Origin: a virus
Virus record (IMG/VR): IMGVR_UViG_3300045952_000267
Span: 1 to 21,235 of that record
Strand: one strand, 5' to 3'
Length of the DNA stretch: 21,235 bases
Positions 2,620-16,419 of the stretch are shown in pieces. The notes under the pieces were generated by a model. The model did no database searches and was not told the origin of the DNA. It saw only the letters and a list, made by a program, of their open reading frames with translations. Position 1 is the stretch's first letter, and every line of letters begins with the position of its first letter. The position numbers and the translations under genes were made by a program.

Positions 2620-3252
2620 ATGGCAAATGCAGTATATCCCCTCTACAAGCAGAACCTCCTGGCCGGTACTACTGGCTATGACCTCGATAATGATACCACT
2701 ACTGATGGGCCGTTTTGTGCACTGGTTGACACAGGTACCTATACCTACAACTCGGCTCATGACTTTTATAATGACATTAGTGGTGTTGCGGGTACCGATC
2801 AACGCATTACTGCACCAACAGTCACCAACGGTACCCTGGATGGAGGCGATTTGACGTACACAGCGGTGGCAGCTGGTAACTCAATTGAGGCATTGATTAT
2901 CTATCGCCACAACTCGGGTGCTAACACTACGTGGCCGCTCGTCCTTTATCTGGATTCCTCCGTTACGGGACTGCCGGTCACTCCCAATGGTGGAAACATC
3001 ACGGTCACTTGGAACGCCTCCGGAATCTTCACCATTAGCGATGGTGATCTTAAGGAAGATGTAGAGTATATGGGTTCTTGGGGCCCAGCAGACTTCTTTG
3101 GTTTCCGCTATCGTGGTGAGAAGGAACGTACCGTGGGCATGATCGCTCAGCAAGTTGAGCAGTGGGCTCCGGATGCAGTAGTCAAGGTCGATGGGCACCG
3201 TGAAGTTAACTACGGTGCAGCCCTGGAGCAGGCGGCAAGGATGGTATCATGA
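2620..3252 (+). CDS. virion surface protein with peptidase S74-like C-terminus
   Basis: 210 residues from ATG 2620, which has GAGAAGG at 2604-2610; in-frame upstream codons exist back to 2569 but lack a ribosome site. Residues 1-138 (MANAVYPLYKQNLLAG...) resemble a common short phage structural protein with alternating hydrophobic beta strands. From S140-D141 the sequence reads SDGDLKEDVEY, then GMIAQQVEQWAPDAV and DGHREVNYG. This matches the intramolecular chaperone (S74) domain at the end of many tail fibres and spikes, where the Ser-Asp pair drives self-cleavage after trimer folding. The S74-like part is only about 70 residues, shorter than the usual ~110-130, so it may be a reduced version. 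It probably decorates the virion or is a fibre-like trimer. It overlaps the next gene by 4 bases. Confidence 0.7.
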   Translation: MANAVYPLYKQNLLAGTTGYDLDNDTTTDGPFCALVDTGTYTYNSAHDFYNDISGVAGTDQRITAPTVTNGTLDGGDLTYTAVAAGNSIEALIIYRHNSGANTTWPLVLYLDSSVTGLPVTPNGGNITVTWNASGIFTISDGDLKEDVEYMGSWGPADFFGFRYRGEKERTVGMIAQQVEQWAPDAVVKVDGHREVNYGAALEQAARMVS

Positions 3253-3853: not shown

Positions 3854-4977
3854 GCTGGACATCTGTCGGTCCTGGCAATTGGCTGAGGCCGCCCGAATAT
3901 GAACTGGGCTCGACTACGATGCAGTTCACCAGCACGGTGATCGATGCGACCGGCGAGAAGATCGCATTCCTCGGGCAGGTCTGGAACAAGGACCGCGCGA
4001 CCAAGAATCTCACCAAAGTCGGTTTCCGCTTCGGCACCGTGACCAAGGCCAGCGGCTCGGCGCTGACCGTTTCGCTGCAGAATGTCGCGACGGCTGGCGG
4101 TCTGCCCTACCAGCCAGATGAAGTGCAGGACCAGACGGTGGCAATCGCTAACGGCGACAGCGGCTTTACCAGCAATGTCTGGTATCAGACCGGTGCCTTC
4201 AGCGCGTCACGCTCGGTTGCGTTCGGCGAATTGCTGGCCGTTGTCGTCGAGTTCGACGGCTCCGGTCGTCTCGGTTCGGACGCCGTCAATTTCCATGCCT
4301 TCGGTCTGGCTGCCACAACAGTCGTCAATGAAGTCACCGGCACGGTGCTGAAGACGGCATCATGGGCGACCGTCGCCGTCAGCACCAACATCGTCCTCGA
4401 ATTCGACGACGGCACGTTTGGATGCTTAGCCGGCAATTCGCAGATCGCGTCAGCGCAAAGCGCCGCAGCCTATAACAGCGGCAGCGGCTTTGATGAACTC
4501 GCGCTCGAATTCCAAGTGCCGTTCGCCTGCAAGATTGATGGCTGCTGGATACGGATGCGTGTTGCCGGTTCCACGTCGGATTTCGATGTCGTCCTCTACG
4601 ACAGCGGCGGCGGCACGCTGGCATCCGTCGCCGTTGACGCTATGCAATTGGCGATTTCCGGCACCAATGACCGCATCGCGACATTCACGTTCGCCGAGAC
4701 GGAACTGGCGATCAACACGACCTATCGGCTGTCGATAAAGCCGACCAGCGGGAACAATGTCACGCTCTACTATCGTGAGGTCGCCAACGCCAACCACAAG
4801 CAGGCGATGCCAGGCGGCACGGCATGGAACTATACGACGCGCGTTGACGGCGGCTCATGGGCCGCCGCGACGACGACCAGAGTGCCGGAAATGGGTATTC
4901 GCATCTCGGCTCTTTCAGATAGCGCAACGGCAGGAGCAGGGGGTTATCCAGCCTCCCGCGTTCGTTTGGGGATGTAA
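3850..4977 (+). CDS. beta-rich virion structural protein
   Basis: 375 residues, start at ATG 3850 within an ATGA overlap. The protein is rich in Thr, Ser, Ala, Val and Gly with alternating polar/hydrophobic strands throughout, no membrane segment and few charged clusters. Two successive beta-sandwich-like parts are suggested: residues ~20-190 (FLGQVWNKDRATKNLTKVGF..., ...NIVLEFDDG) and ~200-355 (FDELALEFQVPFACKIDGCW..., VVLYDSGGGTL, TYRLSIKP). Such proteins occur among phage capsid-decorating and fibre proteins; I do not recognise a named family. The GC-rich base composition contrasts with flanking genes, consistent with horizontal exchange of the 3596-4977 pair. Confidence 0.7.
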   Translation: MSWTSVGPGNWLRPPEYELGSTTMQFTSTVIDATGEKIAFLGQVWNKDRATKNLTKVGFRFGTVTKASGSALTVSLQNVATAGGLPYQPDEVQDQTVAIANGDSGFTSNVWYQTGAFSASRSVAFGELLAVVVEFDGSGRLGSDAVNFHAFGLAATTVVNEVTGTVLKTASWATVAVSTNIVLEFDDGTFGCLAGNSQIASAQSAAAYNSGSGFDELALEFQVPFACKIDGCWIRMRVAGSTSDFDVVLYDSGGGTLASVAVDAMQLAISGTNDRIATFTFAETELAINTTYRLSIKPTSGNNVTLYYREVANANHKQAMPGGTAWNYTTRVDGGSWAAATTTRVPEMGIRISALSDSATAGAGGYPASRVRLGM

Positions 4978-4980
4978 TCC

Positions 4981-5496
4981 ATGACGCGTAGGCTCGCTCA
5001 ATCCACTTCACATGTACTGATGCTCAAAGTATTTCTATCGAGCGATCATGTTTCAGCGGCAACCGGTAAGACGGTAGCGATTGTTATTAGTAAGGCTGGT
5101 GCTGCTTTTGGTAACCCGAATGCTGGTGCGACCAACGCTACAGAGGTGTCTAATGGTTGGTACAAAGTGACACTCGACACTACTGATACCGGTACATTAG
5201 GTGATCTCGTTGTTCGGGGCACCGCGACCGCTTGTGATGATAGTGAGCAGATTTGCCATGTGGTGAGCGCCACCACCAACGGTGCCAGCAATCTCGACGC
5301 CGCTGTGTCAACGCTGGCGACACAGGCGAGCGTCAACACTATCGATGACTTCCTCGATACTGAGATTGCTGCGATCAAGGCGAAGACCGATTCCCTAACC
5401 TTCACCGTCACTAATCAAGTAGATGCCAATATTCAGAGTGTCAATGAAGTAACGGTTACTGGATCTGGTTCTGGTGGATCACCTTGGGGGCCATAA
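4981..5496 (+). CDS. virion structural protein with flexible C-terminus
   Basis: 171 residues from ATG 4981, 3 bases after the previous stop. Residues 1-100 form a beta-rich domain (LMLKVFLSSDHVSAATGKTV, ISKAGAAFGNPNAGATNATE, VSNGWYKVTLDTTDTGTLGD) that I have seen repeatedly at the base of phage and prophage fibre proteins. The segment NTIDDFLDTEIAAIKAKTD is an amphipathic, possibly trimeric coiled-coil helix that accompanies this domain in such proteins. The C-terminus ends in Gly/Ser-rich GSGSGGSPWGP. It directly abuts the next gene (TAA then TTG), so it could be the attachment partner of the large enzyme-bearing protein downstream. Confidence 0.72.
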   Translation: MTRRLAQSTSHVLMLKVFLSSDHVSAATGKTVAIVISKAGAAFGNPNAGATNATEVSNGWYKVTLDTTDTGTLGDLVVRGTATACDDSEQICHVVSATTNGASNLDAAVSTLATQASVNTIDDFLDTEIAAIKAKTDSLTFTVTNQVDANIQSVNEVTVTGSGSGGSPWGP

Positions 5497-8166
5497 TTGG
5501 CGACGTTGCGACCCAATACAACGGATTTGGTTGGTGCCTGGAAAGATCATTCAGGTGGCACTGATCTTGCTGGTTCTTTAGACGAAGTCTCGCAAAATGA
5601 TACTGATTATATTGTAGTTACCAATCCGGTTGATGATATCTGCCGCGTCAACCTTGGCGGTGATATCGTTCTAGATGGCGATGAGCCAATAACCATAGGT
5701 TATACGCTCGGCGCTACTGAGGATGGTGTGATCGACATGACGGTGCGTTTGAAGCAGGGAGCGGCACTGATTGCGACGTGGACGCATACCGGTATTCCTG
5801 CGGCGATTACGCTGCATGAGCAAGAGCTGACAGACCCTGAGCGGGAATCTATTGACTGGGGTAATCAAGATAATTTGAAATTGGAGTTTGTGGCCAGTGG
5901 CGGTACCTTAACCATTGGAGGAGTATCGGTTGGTGATGAAGGTGAGGTCGGCACTATTTATGAGGGCTACACGCTGTCATGGGGGCATGATTTCTCAATC
6001 CTCGATATTGTCACGCCTAACAACCCAGCTGGTAAATGGTTCACCAACCGCACCTACTTACCAGGAGCACGAACCTCAGACTCACTGCTCAACACCATGT
6101 ACGATACGGACCCGTCTCATACGGGTCATGCCGACGTCAATCGCGGCGAGGCGGTCGGCTTCGACAATATGTCGATAGGCGCAAATGGTATCCTGTTGCA
6201 AGCACGTGCAGCCACTTCTCCAGAGCAGGATATGATGTACGCGGGCCGTAATGAAGTCTCGGCGATGGTCTCGGGTGTCGGTGCAGCGCACTGGTATGCA
6301 GGAGCGGCTGGCACTAACGATATTATCATCGAAGCACGGGAGTGGCGGTCTACCGGAAGCCCGGATGGCTGGCACCCAACCTTTTGGATCACTTCAGGAG
6401 CACCATCAATCAGTATTGACACTGATGAGTATGATTACGAAGGCAATTCGGAAAATACCTATTTTTATCGTAATATCTGGACAGGTGGTTCATCGAGCGG
6501 TACGAATATTGCTGGACCATGGGCGCATGACGCCACCTATCATACGATCAGCTTTAAGGTGAATACCACCAACGTCACGCTCTATCGCGACGGTGTCTCG
6601 GCCGGCGTCGCCACTGGCAATGGTAACAGCAAGGGCAAGTTTCAGAATATTATCTTATCGTCGCATATTCTTAATGGTACTTTTCAAGGTGACACTTACA
6701 GTGCTTCCGCATGGGATGCAGATGTAGATGGTGCATTGTTGGCTGTCGATTGGGTGCGCATTTGGCGCAGAACCGGTAAGACTCATTATAAGCCACTCGT
6801 TAGTGTGGCCGATGCCAATATCGATTACGGCGACAATCAGATCATCACGCTGCCGTCGAAGACGACGCTGTGGGGTAGTACCGCGCCGACCGAATATCTG
6901 CAGGTTGTCTATAATGATGAAGCCGAGCCGGGTGTCACTCACACCACCGTGTTCGATCAGTTTCCGTCCGGCGTCAGTTACGATTCAGGCACTCGAGAAA
7001 TTACTATCAATATTACCTCGGGTAATAGTGGTCGCATGAATTTTGTACTTTCTGCATGGGAAACTGGTGGTACCGGTGAGCCCTTGCGTTTCGCGGTCAA
7101 TCTATCACCTAGAATTACTCTTGATGATTTTAATGTAGCCACCGGATCGACAAGTGTTGATGTTTATGCTCAATGTGATTGTGGTGTATTGACGCCGAAG
7201 ACGATCAGTGTTTCCAATCTTGGCGCAAGCGGGTTGAGTTACAACACCTCAACTGGTTTATTGGAAGGCACGGCGGTCGAGGGTACCTATGCCGATGTGG
7301 CCATTTCCTGCACCAACGGTGCCGGCCAGACTACGACCGCGACTATCACTATCACCGTCGCCGAGGAAAGTTCCGACTACACGACATGGAGCGGACCCGG
7401 CTGGTTCGATGCCAGTGCTACGGCAACCGTGACAACGTCCGGCACCAACGTGCTCGCGGTTGCCAACAAACGCTTTGGCGGCGGTAACCTTGACTATGCT
7501 GGTAATACCGGCGATGTCGACCTGATCGCGAGCGCGCAAAACGGCCTGTCCGCGCTGCGGCTGACACGCAACATCACGGGCGGCAGTACCGACAGCGGTT
7601 CGCAGGTGAGGCCGCGCCTGTCGGCCGCCGTCACCGATCCGCTGTCGACGATGTTCCAGGGCGACGACATGCCCTATACCGTGATCGTCGCCTACAAGCC
7701 GACCGATTCCAACACCGGCTTTATCTGGGCAGCAAGTGATACTGTTGATGCAACTGATGGTCAGCAGATCGCCTTCGTGCGACGTTCTGGTTCGTCTTGC
7801 AGCATCCGCCGTATGTTGGTCACAGCAACACCGAATGATGTCAATTTTGGCTCGGGCAGCGGCCATGCTTCGGGTTCGGCGCGGATCGTTGCGGTCAAGC
7901 ACACCGGCACCGCCGTCTCGGTGTGGGATACCAGCCTGACTAAATCGGTCAATGGCACGGCGCAGAATGTCGGTTCGTTTAACAGCGAACTGACGTTCCG
8001 CCTGTTCGCGTCCGAGAATCCCGGAACCGTCGATCCGGCGTACCAGGCGGTGGCCTGTGCCTGCGATCTGTTCGAGATCATCATCGAGGACGACGCCAAG
8101 GACGATACCTTTATTGAGCAAGCGATTAGTGATCTTGCTGATAAATGGGGTATTACACTGACATAA
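5497..8166 (+). CDS. virion-associated glycanase: GH16-like domain with Ig-like and lectin-like domains
   Basis: 889 residues. The start is TTG 5497, immediately after the upstream TAA and 6 bases downstream of GGGGG. Residues 1-150 are a beta-sandwich like those at phage fibre bases. Residues ~155-423 look like glycoside hydrolase family 16: strand-rich, WHPTFWI, then DEYDYEG with E311, D313 and E315 in the ExDxE spacing of lichenase-type GH16 (nucleophile, helper Asp and acid/base), and a terminal VDWVRIWRR like the family's usual last strand. Residues ~424-535 and ~538-623 are Ig-like (the second with GLSYNTSTGLLEGT, a putative-Ig signature). Residues ~625-889 resemble a LamG/ConA-like lectin ending in LADKWGITLT. 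It should bind and cut a beta-glucan or galactan-like host surface polysaccharide during adsorption. The actual substrate is unknown. Confidence 0.78.
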   Translation: MATLRPNTTDLVGAWKDHSGGTDLAGSLDEVSQNDTDYIVVTNPVDDICRVNLGGDIVLDGDEPITIGYTLGATEDGVIDMTVRLKQGAALIATWTHTGIPAAITLHEQELTDPERESIDWGNQDNLKLEFVASGGTLTIGGVSVGDEGEVGTIYEGYTLSWGHDFSILDIVTPNNPAGKWFTNRTYLPGARTSDSLLNTMYDTDPSHTGHADVNRGEAVGFDNMSIGANGILLQARAATSPEQDMMYAGRNEVSAMVSGVGAAHWYAGAAGTNDIIIEAREWRSTGSPDGWHPTFWITSGAPSISIDTDEYDYEGNSENTYFYRNIWTGGSSSGTNIAGPWAHDATYHTISFKVNTTNVTLYRDGVSAGVATGNGNSKGKFQNIILSSHILNGTFQGDTYSASAWDADVDGALLAVDWVRIWRRTGKTHYKPLVSVADANIDYGDNQIITLPSKTTLWGSTAPTEYLQVVYNDEAEPGVTHTTVFDQFPSGVSYDSGTREITINITSGNSGRMNFVLSAWETGGTGEPLRFAVNLSPRITLDDFNVATGSTSVDVYAQCDCGVLTPKTISVSNLGASGLSYNTSTGLLEGTAVEGTYADVAISCTNGAGQTTTATITITVAEESSDYTTWSGPGWFDASATATVTTSGTNVLAVANKRFGGGNLDYAGNTGDVDLIASAQNGLSALRLTRNITGGSTDSGSQVRPRLSAAVTDPLSTMFQGDDMPYTVIVAYKPTDSNTGFIWAASDTVDATDGQQIAFVRRSGSSCSIRRMLVTATPNDVNFGSGSGHASGSARIVAVKHTGTAVSVWDTSLTKSVNGTAQNVGSFNSELTFRLFASENPGTVDPAYQAVACACDLFEIIIEDDAKDDTFIEQAISDLADKWGITLT

Positions 8167-8653: not shown

Positions 8654-9129
8654 AGAATCATCGCTTAGATGGTATACAGGATCATATTGATGCTGTTGCC
8701 ATTGGCGATTTCATTGAGGATAGACTGGCGTTGATCCGGGGCTCCAATTTCCTCGACAATGAAGCACGTCAAGTTCAGATGTATTTCTTGAAAGCCTTCT
8801 GCCTGTGTGCCGCGCTTGAGCCGCTGTGCGGTAGTGAAATTGACCTTGGCGATGGTTATAGCATCAGGTTGCGCAAGAAACGCCACGAGATCGAGCACGA
8901 CGGCGATCTACCGGGGGCGCGGGTGGACGGCAACGGCTGGCTGGTGATTGAAGGTCAATACTGTAAGGACGGCAGGATCGGTGACCGTTTCGACAAATGC
9001 GGTTATCCGTTGTGGCCGTTCATGGTGCGTAACCCGCCCGTTCAGGGGTCAGGTCCCTGGGGGAATTTCCTCCCGCAAGCGCTAGATCTTTTGCGACAAG
9101 GTGCAGAGGTGTGGCGTTATGGCAACTAG
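8650..9129 (+). CDS. hypothetical phage protein
   Basis: 159 residues, ATG 8650 in an ATGA overlap. Unlike its neighbours it is not beta/Thr-rich: it has a helical first half (DHIDAVAIGDFIEDRLALIR, FLKAFCLCAALEPLCG), four Cys in total (two near residues 51-60), and a charged segment IRLRKKRHEIEHDGD followed by a Gly/Pro-rich part (WPFMVRNPPVQGSGPWGNF). It overlaps the next gene by 11 bases. I recognise no family. The Cys-rich helical half might be a metal or disulphide element, but this is speculation. Confidence 0.65.
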   Translation: MKNHRLDGIQDHIDAVAIGDFIEDRLALIRGSNFLDNEARQVQMYFLKAFCLCAALEPLCGSEIDLGDGYSIRLRKKRHEIEHDGDLPGARVDGNGWLVIEGQYCKDGRIGDRFDKCGYPLWPFMVRNPPVQGSGPWGNFLPQALDLLRQGAEVWRYGN

Positions 9130-10375
9130 GTTTGTTTTCAGCGACACTGCAGATGGTTATGTTCAATGTAGCAATGCCGATTATGCGACGGCACGTAGTG
9201 GTGCCGGGTCGCGCGTGCAGAACAGTGTGGATGATACCCTGTATGTGGGTCAACAATTCACTGGCAGCACTTATGTGGTCTCTCAATTGTTTATCCAATT
9301 TGATCTCTCTTCTGTTGGGTCTATATCTTCCGTCACGTTTTCGGCCCGCATGGAGAATGACTTCTCTACCACAGACTTCACAATAAATGTCCGTTCCTAT
9401 GATTGGGGCGGCACTGTTAGCACCGCAGACTTTATTGACGGTAGCCTGTTGTCGGCTAATACTTTGTTGGCCACGTTTGATACATCGACCACTGCGTTGA
9501 ACAGTTATCAGAATTTTGTTGATTCGGCGCTGTTGGCCAATGTGGCATCAACTTATCGCATGATGATGTGTAGTTCTAGGACAGAATCGAATACGACTCC
9601 GACCGGTAACGAGTATATGGGGATAACTTCCAGGAACAACACTACCGCTTACGCTGGACCTTGTAGGTTGACTGTTGTGGATGATTCAACTCAGTCCTCC
9701 ACCACCATAAATACTGGTACTACTTCGTTTACTCCTAGTGTGGTCGGGCTTCATGATGTGGACTTGTTTGGAGGTGGTGCCCGTCCCACACTGGCTTCCA
9801 GCCAAGAGGGTAGTGGCGGTGGGTCTTCATATGCTTTCTACACATTGACCGTGGGCTCGCTTTCCTCCATCACGGTTTCCGTGGCGGCCCAGCAGAACAC
9901 TGCTGCTACAGCCGGAAATGATACCACGTGGGACACAGGACCCGTTGCCAGGGCTAAGGGCGGTGTTGCCTCGGGCGCAGCCTCGAACAGTGGTAATCTC
10001 GGTGTCATAAGATTTTCGGGTAGCAATGCTACAGCGGCACAGGGCGGTGGCGGCTCGCGTGGTGGTTCGGGTGGTGGTTCATCAGGGAGTGCGGCAGGCA
10101 ACGGTGTGGCAGGAAGTGCTGGATCCGGTTCTGCTGGTGGTGCTGGTGGGATCGCACCGAGTGGCGGTGGCAATGGTGGTGCGGGTGGTGCGTCTGGCGT
10201 TGCTGGTTCGAGTGGGACAGTACCCGGAGGTGGCGCTGGTGGTGGAGGCAATGGCGCAGATGCCGGTAATGGTGCCGCAGGCCGCATAATTGTTTACTGG
10301 TATACACCTGCTGTCGGCCGCCGCCAGCAACCGATTATTCGTTCCAATGCAATGCAACGGGCCGCGAGATGGTAG
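9119..10375 (+). CDS. Gly-rich adhesin/fibre-like virion protein
   Basis: 418 residues from ATG 9119 (MATRFVFSDTADGYVQ), overlapping the upstream stop by 11 bases; an upstream in-frame codon at 9101 is not supported. Residues 1-190 look like a beta-sandwich of the DNRLRE/CBM-like kind (VSQLFIQFDLSSVGSIS, FTINVRSYDWG). Residues ~306-385 are Gly-rich with runs of GGGG, GGSGGG, GGAGG and alternating Ser/Ala, closing with GRIIVYWYTP. This pattern (Gly-rich block followed by a G-R-I-I-V strand) recurs at the ends of phage fibre proteins and is reminiscent of polyglycine-II bundles in receptor-binding adhesins. It probably contacts the host surface or forms a rigid rod. Its stop abuts the next start directly. 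Confidence 0.72.
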   Translation: MATRFVFSDTADGYVQCSNADYATARSGAGSRVQNSVDDTLYVGQQFTGSTYVVSQLFIQFDLSSVGSISSVTFSARMENDFSTTDFTINVRSYDWGGTVSTADFIDGSLLSANTLLATFDTSTTALNSYQNFVDSALLANVASTYRMMMCSSRTESNTTPTGNEYMGITSRNNTTAYAGPCRLTVVDDSTQSSTTINTGTTSFTPSVVGLHDVDLFGGGARPTLASSQEGSGGGSSYAFYTLTVGSLSSITVSVAAQQNTAATAGNDTTWDTGPVARAKGGVASGAASNSGNLGVIRFSGSNATAAQGGGGSRGGSGGGSSGSAAGNGVAGSAGSGSAGGAGGIAPSGGGNGGAGGASGVAGSSGTVPGGGAGGGGNGADAGNGAAGRIIVYWYTPAVGRRQQPIIRSNAMQRAARW

Positions 10376-13300
10376 ATGGCACGTCTTGCTAGATCTCTAC
10401 CCGGATTAATCATTAATCGGCATGGTCCGGACGAGGTTAATGCGCCCTATCTGCGGTCGTATTCAAATACGACTTATACCTCGCGTACCACCAGTACGAC
10501 ACTGACTGCGCCGACTGGTATCCAGAACGGCGATCTACTGATCCTGACGCAGGTCATTGGTGTTACCGGATCATCACCACCGACGCCAACGCCGCCGACC
10601 GGTTTCGTCGCGGTTCCAAATACCACACTCGTCGATGCCAATGACGGCAGTTTTCGAGCCCACTTTTATGTCTGGTATAAGGTAGCCAGTAGCGAGGCAG
10701 GCAGCTACGTCTGTACTCACAGCGGAACTGCCAGTACGCAGTTGGCGATGGTGGCAGTTGCCGGGGCTGACACCACAAATCCTATTGATGCTTCCCAGGG
10801 TAGCCAGGGAACTGCAACGGCGACATTTAGCGCAACCGGCGTTACAACGACTGAAGCAAATGATTTCCTTGTCATTGTTGATCACGATTGGGGCATAGCA
10901 CCGGGTACACAGACGCCTCCTTCTGGTTTTACCGAAATCATTGAAACCACACTGAGCCATGCGTTTGTGAAGTTGCAAACGGCGGTCGGTGCCACTGGCA
11001 ATTTTTCAATTGGCACTTCCAACAGTGATAACGACGCGTGGGCTGCTGCGGTCATTGCCGTCCGCAAGCCTATTTCCGGCGACATCCTGCAGCCATCGCT
11101 CTACAGCGATGACGATAGCTTCTATCCGCCAACTGTCATTCCGGGCTTAATAACTCTTACTCCAGACCTATATACTGATACAGATATTTTTCAAACACCA
11201 ATTATTGTATATGCACTGACGCAGGCGGCGCTTTACGAAGACACAGATATATTCTTTGGGCCTACAGTGGGTGTGGGTACGGTTAATCTTGCGCCTGCTC
11301 TTTACGATGATGCCGATGCATTTTACACAGCCACAGTTGCCGCCGCCGTTCCACTTCAAGGTTTTGTTACGTGGGCCTATATAGAGGGTACTGAGGTTGC
11401 TCCAAAATCGCTGACACCGTCGCACTATGATGACAGCGATACGTTTTATTCAGCTACCATCGCTACAGGCGCTGTTGATCTTGCGCCGAATATCCATACT
11501 GACACAGATATATTCTTCTCATTAACTGCAATAGCCGGTACAATCAATATTTCACCATTGCTCTATGTCGATGGTACACTTGGATATGATCCATGGAACG
11601 GCAGCTGGGGTACTTCGTGGGGTAGTAGCTGGGCGGCTACAGGAGCACCCGATTTCTTCTATGAACAGACAGTCACACTAACTGCGCCTGGTGAGCAGGG
11701 AATTTTTCCATCTTATTATAATGATACTGATATATTCTATACTCATATAGTTATTGGTGATATTAGCCTAACTCCTAACTTATATACCGATATAGATAGT
11801 TTTTATACACCAACTGTTTTTGGCTTGTACACAATAACTCCACCCCTTTATACGGACTCGGAAACATATTATACACAAACGACCAGCTATATTTATGCTC
11901 TAACGCCATCTCTATATACAGATACCGATATATTCTATACTCAACTATCAAGTTATCCGTTAGTACCGTCTCTGTATACGGATCCTGAAACATATTTTAC
12001 ACCGACAGTTGTAAGCGGTGCTGTTAATCTAACTCCAGCACTTTACACTGATACAGATTCGTTCTATACACCAACCCTTGGGCGCGGCGCTGTTAGCATA
12101 ACGCCTTCCCTGTACACCGATGCGGATACATTCTATACGCAGATGGTTGCGTCTACATATGCATTGACGCCTTCCCTGTATACTGATGCAGATACTTTCT
12201 ACACGCAGACACTTGTTTCAATTTATGCTCTAACACCTTCTCTCTATATAGATGCAGATATTTTCTACACGCAGATGGTATCGTCTACATATGCGTTGAC
12301 GCCAGCTAAATATACTGACAATGAAACATATTACACCCAGACGGTAGCGTCTACATATGCCCTAACCCCATCTCTGTATGTAGACAGTGAAACATATTAT
12401 ACGCAGACAGTATCCTATACATATGCTCTAACTCCATCTTTATATGTCGATACGGATACGTACTATAATCACCTCCTGGAAAGAGCAGGTGAAAAGAATG
12501 TAGCTCCGGATCCATATACGGATACGGATACTTTTTATACGCCAACCATTACCACTGGAGCAGTCAATATTGCTCCATCCCTTTATACTGATGCGGATAC
12601 TTTCTATACACAAACCGTAGTGTCAACGTATGCGTTGACGCCTTCCCTGTATACTGACAATGACACTTTCTACACGCAGACTGTTGCATCCATTTATCCT
12701 CTAACGCCTGCCAAGTACACTGATAACGATACGTTCTATACGCAGACGCTATCGTCTACATACGCTCTATCACCTGCTAAGTATACTGACAACGATACGT
12801 TCTATACACAGACACTGGTGGGTGGTGCTGTTAATCTAACACCACCTCTCTATATTGATACTGAGACATACTATACTGGAACAATCCAAGTTGCTCCTAT
12901 CCAGGGACTAACTCCGGCACTCTATACTGATACAGATACATTCTATTCAGTTATTGTAGCGCCTGACCAGGCAATGCACCCATTCCTATATGTGGATGGT
13001 GAGGGATTCTATACACATATTCTTGTATCGACTTATGCACTTGTACCATCTCTGTATACCGATGACGATACATTCTATTCCGTTTCGGATGTAAGCTATC
13101 CTGTTGCAGTTGGCTTATATATTGACGACGATATATTCTATACGCCTGCTCTGACTGGAGCTGGGTTTATTGCACCTAGCTTGCACATCGAGAGTGATAT
13201 AATTTATAGTGTACGTTTAGCGCTCGTTACTGATACAGATACTGATCGTTACGCTCGCGTTATAGCTGAAGATCGAGCTGCAAGGGTTATAGCCGAAACT

Positions 13301-13456
13301 CGAACTGTTCAAGTCATAGCGGAAGACAGATTTGCTCGAGTAGTGGCAGAAGATCGTTATGCCAAGGTAATAGCGGAAGATCGTTATGCCAAGGTGATAG
13401 CAGAAGACAGAGAAGGCGACGCACCAGCCGAAGGAAGGTTTGCGGAGGTACCGTAA
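10376..13456 (+). CDS. giant repeat fibre protein (22-residue aromatic repeats, nonapeptide tail)
   Basis: 1026 residues; ATG 10376 follows the upstream TAG with no gap. Residues 1-235 are a beta-sandwich domain (NGDLLILTQVIGV, FYVWYKVASSEAGSYVCTHSG, LAMVAVAGADTTNPIDASQG). Residues ~238-948 hold about 30 copies of a ~22-residue unit with consensus LTPSLYTDxDTFYTQTVxxxYA, Tyr/Asp/Thr-rich and lacking Cys. One unit is enlarged by a Trp-rich insert (W407, W411, W415, W419 in DPWNGSWGTSWGSSW). Residues 957-1019 are seven nonapeptides with consensus DRxAxVIAE. The regularity suggests an elongated solenoid or bead-like beta rod, perhaps a whisker or tail/head fibre with surface aromatic and Asp ladders that could bind ions or glycans. 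Repeats are diverged at DNA level, showing selection on the protein. A glycosyltransferase-like gene lies about 300 bases downstream. Exact fold and location in the virion are unknown. Confidence 0.8.
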   Translation: MARLARSLPGLIINRHGPDEVNAPYLRSYSNTTYTSRTTSTTLTAPTGIQNGDLLILTQVIGVTGSSPPTPTPPTGFVAVPNTTLVDANDGSFRAHFYVWYKVASSEAGSYVCTHSGTASTQLAMVAVAGADTTNPIDASQGSQGTATATFSATGVTTTEANDFLVIVDHDWGIAPGTQTPPSGFTEIIETTLSHAFVKLQTAVGATGNFSIGTSNSDNDAWAAAVIAVRKPISGDILQPSLYSDDDSFYPPTVIPGLITLTPDLYTDTDIFQTPIIVYALTQAALYEDTDIFFGPTVGVGTVNLAPALYDDADAFYTATVAAAVPLQGFVTWAYIEGTEVAPKSLTPSHYDDSDTFYSATIATGAVDLAPNIHTDTDIFFSLTAIAGTINISPLLYVDGTLGYDPWNGSWGTSWGSSWAATGAPDFFYEQTVTLTAPGEQGIFPSYYNDTDIFYTHIVIGDISLTPNLYTDIDSFYTPTVFGLYTITPPLYTDSETYYTQTTSYIYALTPSLYTDTDIFYTQLSSYPLVPSLYTDPETYFTPTVVSGAVNLTPALYTDTDSFYTPTLGRGAVSITPSLYTDADTFYTQMVASTYALTPSLYTDADTFYTQTLVSIYALTPSLYIDADIFYTQMVSSTYALTPAKYTDNETYYTQTVASTYALTPSLYVDSETYYTQTVSYTYALTPSLYVDTDTYYNHLLERAGEKNVAPDPYTDTDTFYTPTITTGAVNIAPSLYTDADTFYTQTVVSTYALTPSLYTDNDTFYTQTVASIYPLTPAKYTDNDTFYTQTLSSTYALSPAKYTDNDTFYTQTLVGGAVNLTPPLYIDTETYYTGTIQVAPIQGLTPALYTDTDTFYSVIVAPDQAMHPFLYVDGEGFYTHILVSTYALVPSLYTDDDTFYSVSDVSYPVAVGLYIDDDIFYTPALTGAGFIAPSLHIESDIIYSVRLALVTDTDTDRYARVIAEDRAARVIAETRTVQVIAEDRFARVVAEDRYAKVIAEDRYAKVIAEDREGDAPAEGRFAEVP
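11087..13219 (+). repeat. ~30 tandem 66-bp-class coding repeats (22-residue unit)
   Basis: Within the large fibre gene the motif L-Y-T-D-x-D-T-F-Y-T recurs about thirty times at a spacing of 21-23 codons, with a few longer units (around 11350, 11588 and 12480). Several adjacent units between about 12110 and 12820 are nearly identical in DNA, while the first and last units are strongly diverged. This pattern suggests expansion from the centre of the array by unequal recombination or slippage. Confidence 0.92.
13244..13432 (+). repeat. seven nonapeptide coding repeats
   Basis: Codons 957-1019 of the fibre gene read as seven 27-base units of consensus D-R-x-A-x-V-I-A-E. Units 5 and 6 (13352-13378, 13379-13405) encode the same nine residues and differ only at two third-codon bases. 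The last unit (DREGDAPAE) and the following GRFAEVP are degenerate. Similar nonapeptide ends are, as I recall, common at the C-termini of phage proteins lying directly before a small protein of the kind encoded next here. Confidence 0.9.
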
Positions 13457-13457
13457 G

Positions 13458-13745
13458 ATGGCAATATCTTGGCCTGCACCTAAGGATCCCAATGACATTA
13501 AGGACTATGCCCTGGACTGGTCGCCCAAGCTTCCAGACGGGGATATTCTTATTGGCTCAGAATGGTTTGTTGTAGATGAAACTCAGAGCTTGGTTATTGA
13601 TAGCTCTAGTTTTACCGACACATTGTCTACTGTATGGCTTTCGGAAGGTGATGAAAGTAGCGCTGTGGAAGTGCTCAATCGTGTTACTACCCAAGGTGGT
13701 CGGCAGTATGATCAAACCATGAAGCTGAAGATCAAAACCCTGTAA
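13458..13745 (+). CDS. conserved small phage protein
   Basis: 95 residues from ATG 13458, with GGAGG at 13444-13448 inside the end of the repeat gene. The sequence MAISWPAPKDPNDIKDYALD, then SSSFTDTLSTVWLSEG and a C-terminal RVTTQGGRQYDQTMKLKIK match a small beta-rich protein I have seen often in siphophages and prophages (W-P-x-K-D-P-x-x-x-x-D-Y start, TTVWLSxG core, TxxGRxxDQTxxLKI end). It may cap or anchor the fibre that it follows. No function is established to my knowledge. It overlaps the next gene by one base (TAATG). Confidence 0.78.
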   Translation: MAISWPAPKDPNDIKDYALDWSPKLPDGDILIGSEWFVVDETQSLVIDSSSFTDTLSTVWLSEGDESSAVEVLNRVTTQGGRQYDQTMKLKIKTL

Positions 13746-14563
13746 TGTTGTGGGTAGTAGTAGCCAAGGAGCGTAGAGACAAACAACTTGTTCAAGCTGA
13801 GGCAATGATAGATGGGTTACGTGGTCACGGGGTCAAGGCTGAGATATGCTTGGATGATCCGCCGAACGATAAGGACCCCTTCATTGCGCGTGGGCAATTA
13901 TGGGTTGTTGAGCGTATTGTACCCAAAGCGCTCAAAACGGGACAACCTTTCTGGATTATTGATAATGGATTTTACAAATATGGAAGAGGTGGCTATTATA
14001 AAATCACCTACAAAGGATTAAGTCCAATTGTGCTTAAGAATCCAGACACAAAACGCTTTCCTCCGGAGAAGGTAATGCACCCTTGGATTCAAAAACGTAG
14101 TGAAAGGGGCTATGTACTGATAGGGGTCCCTGGACCAAAATTTGGCAAGTGTTTAGGTATAGATGTACCTACATGGATTAAAACAATTTATCAAAGAGTG
14201 AGGGCAAACACAAATAGAAGGGTTATAGTCCGTGAAAAATGGACTCAGAGTCCCACATTGGCGGAACATCTTGCCGGTGCTCACGTGTTGGTTACTCATA
14301 GCAGCAATATTGCTGTTGATGCAATAATTCAGGGTGTACCAGCAATTGTTGAGTCAACCAATCCAGCAGCACCAGTTTGTGCTCAATCCTTGGACTATAT
14401 AGAAAGGCCCCTTTATCCAGATAGAAGGTCTTGGTGGCGGTCTCTAATGTGTCAACAATTTAATGATGTAGAAATGTCAAATGGTCTAGCATGGCATTGG
14501 ATGAAAAAAGTTCAGGAGCAGGTTGATGGTGAGCCGTTGCCTAGTAATTGGGTCGGCGCGTAA
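13745..14563 (+). CDS. putative glycosyltransferase (capsule/GT-B-like)
   Basis: 272 residues, ATG 13745 sharing a base with the upstream TAA. The C-terminal half contains TLAEHLAGAHVLVTHSSNIA followed by VDAIIQGVPAIVES, a pattern typical of the nucleotide-sugar-binding half of GT-B enzymes and of capsule polysaccharide synthesis proteins: a Thr-His-Ser-Ser loop, an acidic/hydrophobic helix, then G-V-P. Before it are a basic RRVIVREKW strand and an N-terminal half with PFWIIDNGFYKYG. The tail (RPLYPDRRSWWRSLMCQQFN) matches the end of similar phage/bacterial proteins as I remember them. It may glycosylate the repeat fibre or remodel host glycans. The assignment to transferase is an inference from the motif order, as no direct catalytic signature is fixed for this group. 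Confidence 0.6.
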   Translation: MLWVVVAKERRDKQLVQAEAMIDGLRGHGVKAEICLDDPPNDKDPFIARGQLWVVERIVPKALKTGQPFWIIDNGFYKYGRGGYYKITYKGLSPIVLKNPDTKRFPPEKVMHPWIQKRSERGYVLIGVPGPKFGKCLGIDVPTWIKTIYQRVRANTNRRVIVREKWTQSPTLAEHLAGAHVLVTHSSNIAVDAIIQGVPAIVESTNPAAPVCAQSLDYIERPLYPDRRSWWRSLMCQQFNDVEMSNGLAWHWMKKVQEQVDGEPLPSNWVGA

Positions 14564-15092
14564 CTGGGAAGAAGATGTTGCGGCTGCTGAAGCAATGGCA
14601 GAGTTCAAGCATTTTGTTGTGGTTAAAGGTGTGGGTTGCATTTGGCCAAGAGAAGTGGATGCTTGGGTAACACTCCATAATGAAATGATTGAAAGTCAGG
14701 TAGCAGATAGGAAGAAAGCAGGATTTTCTGATGCTAAAGCAATTTACAGTTGGGATAAACCGCCAAAGATTAGATGCATCACGCATAGGACGGAATTCCG
14801 TTGGCCGAACCAGAAAGTATCAGCAAGTTCTGGCATATTTGGTGCCAAGGTTGCTGCTGTTGATCTCGGTTTTAACCGTGTTGTACTTTGTGGTTGTCCT
14901 TTAGAAGCTGGATGGGGTCGAATTGACTACACTCATGCCTGGACTCATGCTAGATCCTTTATTAAGGGTTTTTTGCAAGCTGTACCAGATATGATAAATG
15001 TGCGTTCAATGTCAGGTTTCACTAGGGAACATCTAGGGGCTCCTACTATTGAATGGTTAAATGGAATGCCCTATAATGGGGCACCAGGGTGA
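14526..15092 (+). CDS. Rossmann-like phage protein (DUF115-like, possibly sugar-related)
   Basis: 188 residues. ATG 14526 follows AGGAG at 14514-14518; a TTG one codon upstream is less likely. It overlaps the preceding gene by 38 bases. RCLVIGSARNWEEDVAAAEA resembles the first beta-alpha-beta of a nucleotide-binding fold; later SSGIFGAKVAAVDLGFNRVV followed by LCGCPLEAG and VRSMSGFTREHLGAP form a pattern I know from many phage hypothetical proteins and from the DUF115/sialyltransferase-like superfamily (S-S-G, helix, G-F/Y-x-x-I-V-L-x-G). Tight coupling to a glycosyltransferase-like gene supports a role in sugar transfer or sugar-nucleotide handling. Function remains unproven. Confidence 0.62.
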   Translation: MVSRCLVIGSARNWEEDVAAAEAMAEFKHFVVVKGVGCIWPREVDAWVTLHNEMIESQVADRKKAGFSDAKAIYSWDKPPKIRCITHRTEFRWPNQKVSASSGIFGAKVAAVDLGFNRVVLCGCPLEAGWGRIDYTHAWTHARSFIKGFLQAVPDMINVRSMSGFTREHLGAPTIEWLNGMPYNGAPG

Positions 15093-15717: not shown

Positions 15718-15959
15718 TGGGCGAAGTCATATTTCTACAACAGGTACGTGAAAAGATAGATGCTGCTGCGAAACATGGCGTAGCGTTGGAAAATGTTCTC
15801 GATCGCGTTCAATTGGAGAAGCTTAACACAATAATGGTGTTTCACGACGATGGTCATGTCATCCACTGGACGCGCCTCAAGACAACCGAACAATTTAGTT
15901 GGCTTAGAAAGTGTTTTGACTCGATCGTCTCCCGCTCCAAAAAGGCAACTAAAAAGTGA
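15717..15959 (+). CDS. hypothetical small phage protein
   Basis: 80 residues; ATG 15717 shares a base with the upstream TAA. The sequence VIFLQQVREKIDAAAKHGVA, IMVFHDDGHVIHWTRLK and a basic tail (SRSKKATKK) suggest a small alpha/beta fold ending in a positively charged tail. The 3' half lies in a region also open in the frame of the NusG-like gene, so the two may overlap by up to 110 bases. No family is recognised. Confidence 0.65.
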   Translation: MGEVIFLQQVREKIDAAAKHGVALENVLDRVQLEKLNTIMVFHDDGHVIHWTRLKTTEQFSWLRKCFDSIVSRSKKATKK

Positions 15960-16419
15960 TTGGCTCATTGTTCATGTGTTTCCAGGACGTGAAATGAATG
16001 TTTGTGAGTATGCGGAAAGACATGGACTCATAACATATTTTCCTCGAATAAAGAAAATGATTAAACCGCCTAAGAAGCGGAAGCCCATATTTCAAGAAAC
16101 CCGCAATGCTGTCTTCCCAGGATATGTATTTGTTTTGTTTGATTGGGGTTGGAAAAAGTTGCTGCAGGCCGATTATGTGATAAAGTTCCTGGGTGATGAT
16201 GAGATACCTGCATTAATATCCAATTTTGATATTGAGCAGATACAGAATGTAGAGGAAGCAGGATTTATATCAAGAAATCGTGGTATAGTGATAGGCGATG
16301 GTGTTGTGGTTAAAGTCCTAGGTGATATCACGTTGCCAGTAGAATCTATTGGAAAAAGCAGCATATTCTTATCTGCTGGTGCATTTCGAATTAAAATACC
16401 ACTTGTGTCAAGCGATTGA
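15850..16419 (+). CDS. NusG/RfaH-like transcription elongation factor (NGN domain)
   Basis: Up to 189 residues; the start is uncertain. ATG 15850, ATG 15856 and TTG 15916 are in frame and none has a strong ribosome site; the conserved domain begins at W38, so TTG 15916 would suffice. DWLIVHVFPGREMNVCEYAE matches the first NGN strand and helix (W-x-V-x-x-x-P-G-R-E), YFPRIKK and FPGYVFVLFD (P90-V95) match the next strands, and IQNVEEAGFI resembles the last NGN helix. This domain binds the RNA polymerase clamp helices and keeps it elongating. The C-terminal part (GDGVVVKVLGDITLPVESIG...) occupies the KOW position but lacks the usual G-x-F-x-G-x-x-G core. A phage-encoded paralogue here probably acts on the phage's own late operon, as RfaH or LoaP do on long operons. 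Confidence 0.75.
   Translation: MVMSSTGRASRQPNNLVGLESVLTRSSPAPKRQLKSDWLIVHVFPGREMNVCEYAERHGLITYFPRIKKMIKPPKKRKPIFQETRNAVFPGYVFVLFDWGWKKLLQADYVIKFLGDDEIPALISNFDIEQIQNVEEAGFISRNRGIVIGDGVVVKVLGDITLPVESIGKSSIFLSAGAFRIKIPLVSSD

Follow-up and report, generated by a model that had tools for sequence, protein, structure and literature searches.

The window analyzed here (the whole stretch of DNA, 21,235 bases) is an IMG/VR virus record whose right end contains siphophage connector and tail genes, namely those for Ad1, Hc1, head morphogenesis, Neck1, tail terminator, major tail protein and tail assembly chaperone. The features considered in this study are as follows:

2620-3252, plus strand: phrog_644 protein, similar to the tail wing arm gp31 of phage Bxb1 (9d93, E 2e-6)
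5497-8166, plus strand: large protein of phrog_9750, carrying a putative Ig domain that scored below the Pfam cut-off
9101-10375, plus strand: protein with a polyglycine-type C-terminal region (Gly_rich_2 only, E 0.33)
10376-13456, plus strand: fiber gene, 1026 aa, encoding an N-terminal globular domain, an array of about 30 repeats of 22 residues and a nonapeptide tail
10376-11071, plus strand: N-terminal globular domain, residues 1-232
11084-13225, plus strand: repeat array, residues 237-950
11549-11674, plus strand: unit with a W-rich insertion, residues 392-433
13226-13453, plus strand: C-terminal tail of period 9 (AEDRYAKVI), with Arg every nine residues
13458-13745, plus strand: homologue of the gp77-type fiber-tail adaptor (PF23148, 76.1 bits against a cut-off of 27; 8jou_D, E 1e-4)

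An earlier note on this DNA had placed the repeat protein in a virion fiber, and the neighboring tail-appendage genes supported this context. The gp31-like protein at 2620-3252 had a weak S74-chaperone-like C-terminus that fell narrowly short of the Pfam cut-off, and its homologue preceded the repeat gene in 41 of the 44 loci with room upstream. Entry 9d93 belongs to phage Bxb1 (PMC13148394), whose tail wing the module resembles in its gp31-like arm, but no match to the 22-residue array was found among PDB sequences. A protein of locus L052 matched the gp31-like protein over almost the same full length. The products of 9101-10375 and 5497-8166 are probably a second and a third appendage protein, respectively.

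The genes at 1039-1788, 1782-2543, 13745-14563 and 14541-15092 flank the fiber genes and appeared glycosyltransferase-like by eye (e.g. VDCDVLF, WADGDIL). Library searches gave no support for these four proteins beyond a DUF6716 match below the cut-off and phrog_28018. Possible substrates would be the virion or the Thr-rich array. Separately, a NusG/RfaH-like transcription factor (PF02357, E 1e-11) is encoded at 15850-16419 amid the head-tail connector genes.

Anatomy of the fiber protein and its C-terminal tail

Using a family-trained scoring matrix, we found 28 units of at least 10 bits and one of 9.9 bits in residues 237-950 of the fiber protein (29 scored units), but none in 200 shuffles of the same protein. 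Together with an extra unit at residues 392-433, in which a long W-rich loop sits between the two Asp positions (the D-x-D corner) and which has a counterpart in locus L008, the array comprises about 30 units across about 714 residues. Autocorrelation was maximal at lag 22 in the array (0.30) and at lag 9 in the tail (0.57), so the regular array that had been described between a globular N-terminus and a 9-residue repeat was confirmed. Its unit length is less strict than the earlier note proposed: units were chiefly spaced by 22 or 23 residues, but spacings of 20, 21 and 24 and a few long gaps also occurred. The net charge of the array is -71. The N-terminal domain has relatives in two loci (L087 and L088), where it is joined to other bodies; the L087 protein (4905-8012) carries, after this domain, a different repeat (TDSATLTDSSS) and a long C-terminal part, free of repeats, that resembles a tail hub.

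The central units had been called identical, which proved incorrect. The most similar pair shared 17 of 20 residues (85%) and 82% of the DNA, adjoining units were scarcely more similar than distant ones, and 61% of the differences among similar pairs fell at third codon positions. Recent tandem duplication in the window was therefore ruled out, and the units appear to be old copies kept by selection rather than the product of a fresh expansion. The related suggestion that copy number can change held nevertheless: close relatives with shared ends carried 8, 10 and 13 units, the change among L034, L066, L070 and L071 being one of whole units.

The adaptor gene starts (ATG) one base past the fiber stop codon, and in one locus (L010) a single reading frame encodes both the repeat protein and the adaptor. 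The adaptor adjoined the repeat gene in only about seven relatives and was absent there in most, which counts against the reading that we prefer below. Ralstonia podophage GP4 (8jou), whose gp77 is the adaptor of PF23148, is comparable in the gp77 homologue directly downstream of the fiber gene; in contrast with GP4, the window phage is a siphophage and its fiber body had no PDB sequence match. Arg-phased tails were also read directly before gp77 genes on the unrelated bodies of Lacusarx, Itty13, Mwe-JY26 and CRP-207, which suggests that the tail is the attachment end and, consequently, that the polarity would be opposite to that of classical fibers. This tail-adaptor link comes from reading the sequences, as counts of Arg chains against gp77 neighborhood were too noisy to serve as a statistic. 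On these sequence grounds, the fiber is probably anchored by its C-terminal tail.

Distribution of the repeat family

A search with a five-row profile identified 187 repeat-bearing stretches in uncultured viral contigs of IMG/VR, whereas the only phage record with the repeat among 50,697 was that of Pseudanabaena phage Pam2. Two bacterial genomes were also positive. A bacterial origin was considered and ruled out: 2 of 29 candidate genome_contigs stretches were confirmed, of 385 genomes sampled from a single class 2 were positive, and so few occurrences indicate that the repeat is not a host family.

The family set comprised 839 units from 67 distinct proteins (none in shuffled sets), with the consensus T-L-T-P-A-L-Y-T-[N/D]-x-[N/D]-T-F-Y-x-P-T-V. 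The most conserved positions were F13 (94%) and L2, P4 and L6 (84%). Proteins contained from a few up to 29 units, and the spacing was quantized, with 22 (375), 23 (269), 25 (56) and 20 (31) residues predominating and 21, 24 and 26 being rare. The linker type tracked the spacing, being mostly xxGAVx at 23 and mostly xQxGGxxQT at 25. The earlier note knew of no solved structure with this repeat, and the repeat matched no known repeat family: Pfam, PHROG, NCBIfam and PDB sequences gave no credible match, and a literature search for the motif letters found no published repeat core. Matches to Col_cuticle_N, TMEM43 and phrog_8501 were rejected because they were short or composition-driven and involved few or no stretches. 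Thus, the rod family is widespread in uncultured phages, almost absent from cultured ones and apparently undescribed.

Pam2, a siphovirus with a tail of about 300 nm, carries the same repeat unit as the window, of the N-x-N type, in gp68 (UQS94948.1), N-terminal to a C-terminal region in common with PA-SR01; gp68 differs in its size (539 aa) and in that this region is unlike the nonapeptide tail of the window. In its relative PA-SR01, the corresponding gene has the same C-terminal region with a different body in place of the solenoid, so the rod is an exchangeable module of tail-appendage proteins.

Other features were confined to parts of the family. In each of six loci (L003, L004, L007, L009, L017 and L057), the array included a single special unit whose conserved loop, ICEDYVDPGYVTPGYVEFYAFNVNVFY, took the place of the D-x-D corner. 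Arrays of the first five of these ended in short C-terminal repeats of about 10 residues (TQTPNWxxV), and those of L013, L034, L036, L066 and L070 in other short repeats of similar length (MTVQELPRRS), whose copy number also varied (3 in L066 and 5 in L034). Each type of C-terminal repeat might mark a different partner protein.

Acidic and amide pairs at positions 9 and 11

Asp and Tyr had been noted at fixed positions, which is true of the window protein; family-wide, over half of the units have Asn-Asn or Asn-Gln instead of the Asp pair. Therefore, calcium binding cannot belong to the repeat as such. The two states were hardly ever mixed: positions 9 and 11 were both acidic in 355 and both amide in 458 of the 839 units, only five units combined an amide with an acid (none as D followed by N), and the other 21 carried another residue. 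When a unit was scored as matched if both or neither of the two positions were acidic, 834 of 839 units were matched, compared with 780 +/- 5 in within-protein shuffles. Held-out contigs, which were outside the training of the matrix, showed the same pattern, with 128 of 132 units matched against 96 +/- 4 and no acid/amide mixtures.

On the other hand, adjacent units switched type freely, and no significant dependence on the neighbor was observed: the state was shared in 135 of 187 adjacent pairs, compared with 130 +/- 4. Inside the unit, the strong couplings included three at i/i+2, namely positions 6-8 (R6 with D8), 1-3 and 9-11, a spacing that extended beta strands give. Same-position couplings across adjacent units were weak, although stacked ladders should show them. 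It is possible that the pairing reflects ancestry, if two old unit types had been moved as blocks, but the 9-11 coupling (0.96 bits) was far above those of positions 9 and 11 with their neighbors (at most 0.36). The acidic pair may represent a putative cation site.

Predicted fold and possible role of the rod

AlphaFold2 predictions were made for monomers. For the window protein, a model of nine units with 96 repeat segments as the alignment had regular two-strand coils in its central units at low confidence (pLDDT 60, pTM 0.50). The regular relative L034 reached a pLDDT of about 75-88 over residues 20-210 (about 190 residues), most of its coils having one 13-residue and one 4-residue strand, and fell below 50 in its C-terminal short repeats. 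The closest structural neighbor of the L034 model was the curli protein CsgA of Pontibacter korlensis (8c50; VIA Z 21.1, 292 aligned, rmsd 9.8 A), followed by a tailspike (VIA Z 15.2), and the window model was closest to SufB/SufD-type solenoids (VIA Z 14.7). Foldseek searches against PDB and BFVD gave no match at E 0.001. The repeats are predicted to form a parallel, curli-like beta-solenoid. AlphaFold2 tends to give solenoids for tandem repeats, and the fold may therefore be an artefact of repetition, which makes it the weakest link of our argument.

The earlier note expected folded repeats, and the predictions agree with this, most clearly in L034. A flexible, largely disordered stalk, perhaps glycosylated, that tethers the domains appears improbable to us: the composition of the array (Thr 17%, Pro 7%), the modest pLDDT of the window model and the nearby genes that look glycosyltransferase-like by eye would suit it, but the strict aromatic and hydrophobic positions, the quantized spacing, the residue couplings and the predicted confidence for L034 argue against it.

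Similarity to curli should be read as one of plan. Curlin repeats are 23 +/- 5 residues long (PMC10192328), and the family spacing of 20-25 lies within this range; units of 22-23 residues with a predicted two strands each, a variable unit number and ladders of Asp/Glu or Asn/Gln are further points in common with CsgA/curlin (PF07012). The curlin fold is a left-handed, two-stranded beta-solenoid, which the predicted coils may resemble. Unlike curlin, the repeat belongs to a phage gene and has globular and adaptor-linked ends attached. The Pfam model PF07012 matched neither P0001 nor six relatives, nor four repeat-bearing records, although the E. coli control did match. Neither curlin signature (QX10Q, NX5QXG) occurred in the window array, and the 67 proteins contained 66 QX10Q (36 in shuffles) and 2 NX5QXG. 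Thus, the rod may work like curli but is not classed here as curlin. The calcium-binding RTX beta-roll motif GGXGXDXUX was likewise absent from the array, and the tail nonapeptide is AEDRYAKVI. Because CsgA polymerizes end to end through open strands (PMC10192328) and is the closest neighbor of the L034 model, the solenoids might be assembling subunits that stack into a long virion whisker; we regard this as very improbable, since many members end, on one side or on both, in globular or adaptor domains that would cap the open edges.

A homotrimeric shaft, either a triple beta-spiral or a triple-stranded beta-helix, is a more serious alternative, though still an unlikely one. Three chains would then be wound together, each unit contributing one level at which the D/N pairs come together on the threefold axis, and this also fits a lock that is fixed per unit and independent of the neighboring unit. 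Most phage fibers are trimeric, including the long tail fiber of Agrobacterium phage 7-7-1 (9rkv), which has a beta-helical central part (PMC12796354); the window model gave a VIA Z of 10.9 to 9rkv_M, a value that common arrangements also reach. However, our models are of monomers, and they are predicted to form regular closed coils without partners.

Our preferred reading, which we hold to be somewhat more probable than its negation, is a tail-associated siphophage fiber whose rigid parallel beta-solenoid rod would serve as a length-adjustable spacer and which would dock by its C-terminal tail. Neither virion proteomics nor EM turned up for any member of the family. Each unit of about 22 residues would make one coil (strand, D-x-D corner, strand and short linker) on a curli-like plan with a separate sequence. 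The nonapeptide tail would attach to the gp77-type adaptor, the product of the following gene, and the rod would hold the N-terminal globular domain at a distance from it, distal and possibly facing the receptor. At one coil per unit, 30 x 0.48 nm would give a rod of about 14 nm in the window, which makes the earlier description as giant doubtful.

If this reading is correct, a rod module frequent among uncultured phages would gain a name and a testable fold, curli-like architecture would extend to virions, and the array would offer a natural ruler, variable in length and charge by whole coils. More tentatively, and with a rather low probability in our estimate, the phage-only curli-like solenoids may have a two-state site in each coil, either an acid pair that holds a cation or an amide pair that is hydrogen-bonded and cation-free. 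The acid/amide lock offers a sharp prediction; under the two-state reading, the charge and ion dependence of the rod would be set coil by coil, and gain or loss of whole coils would tune its length.
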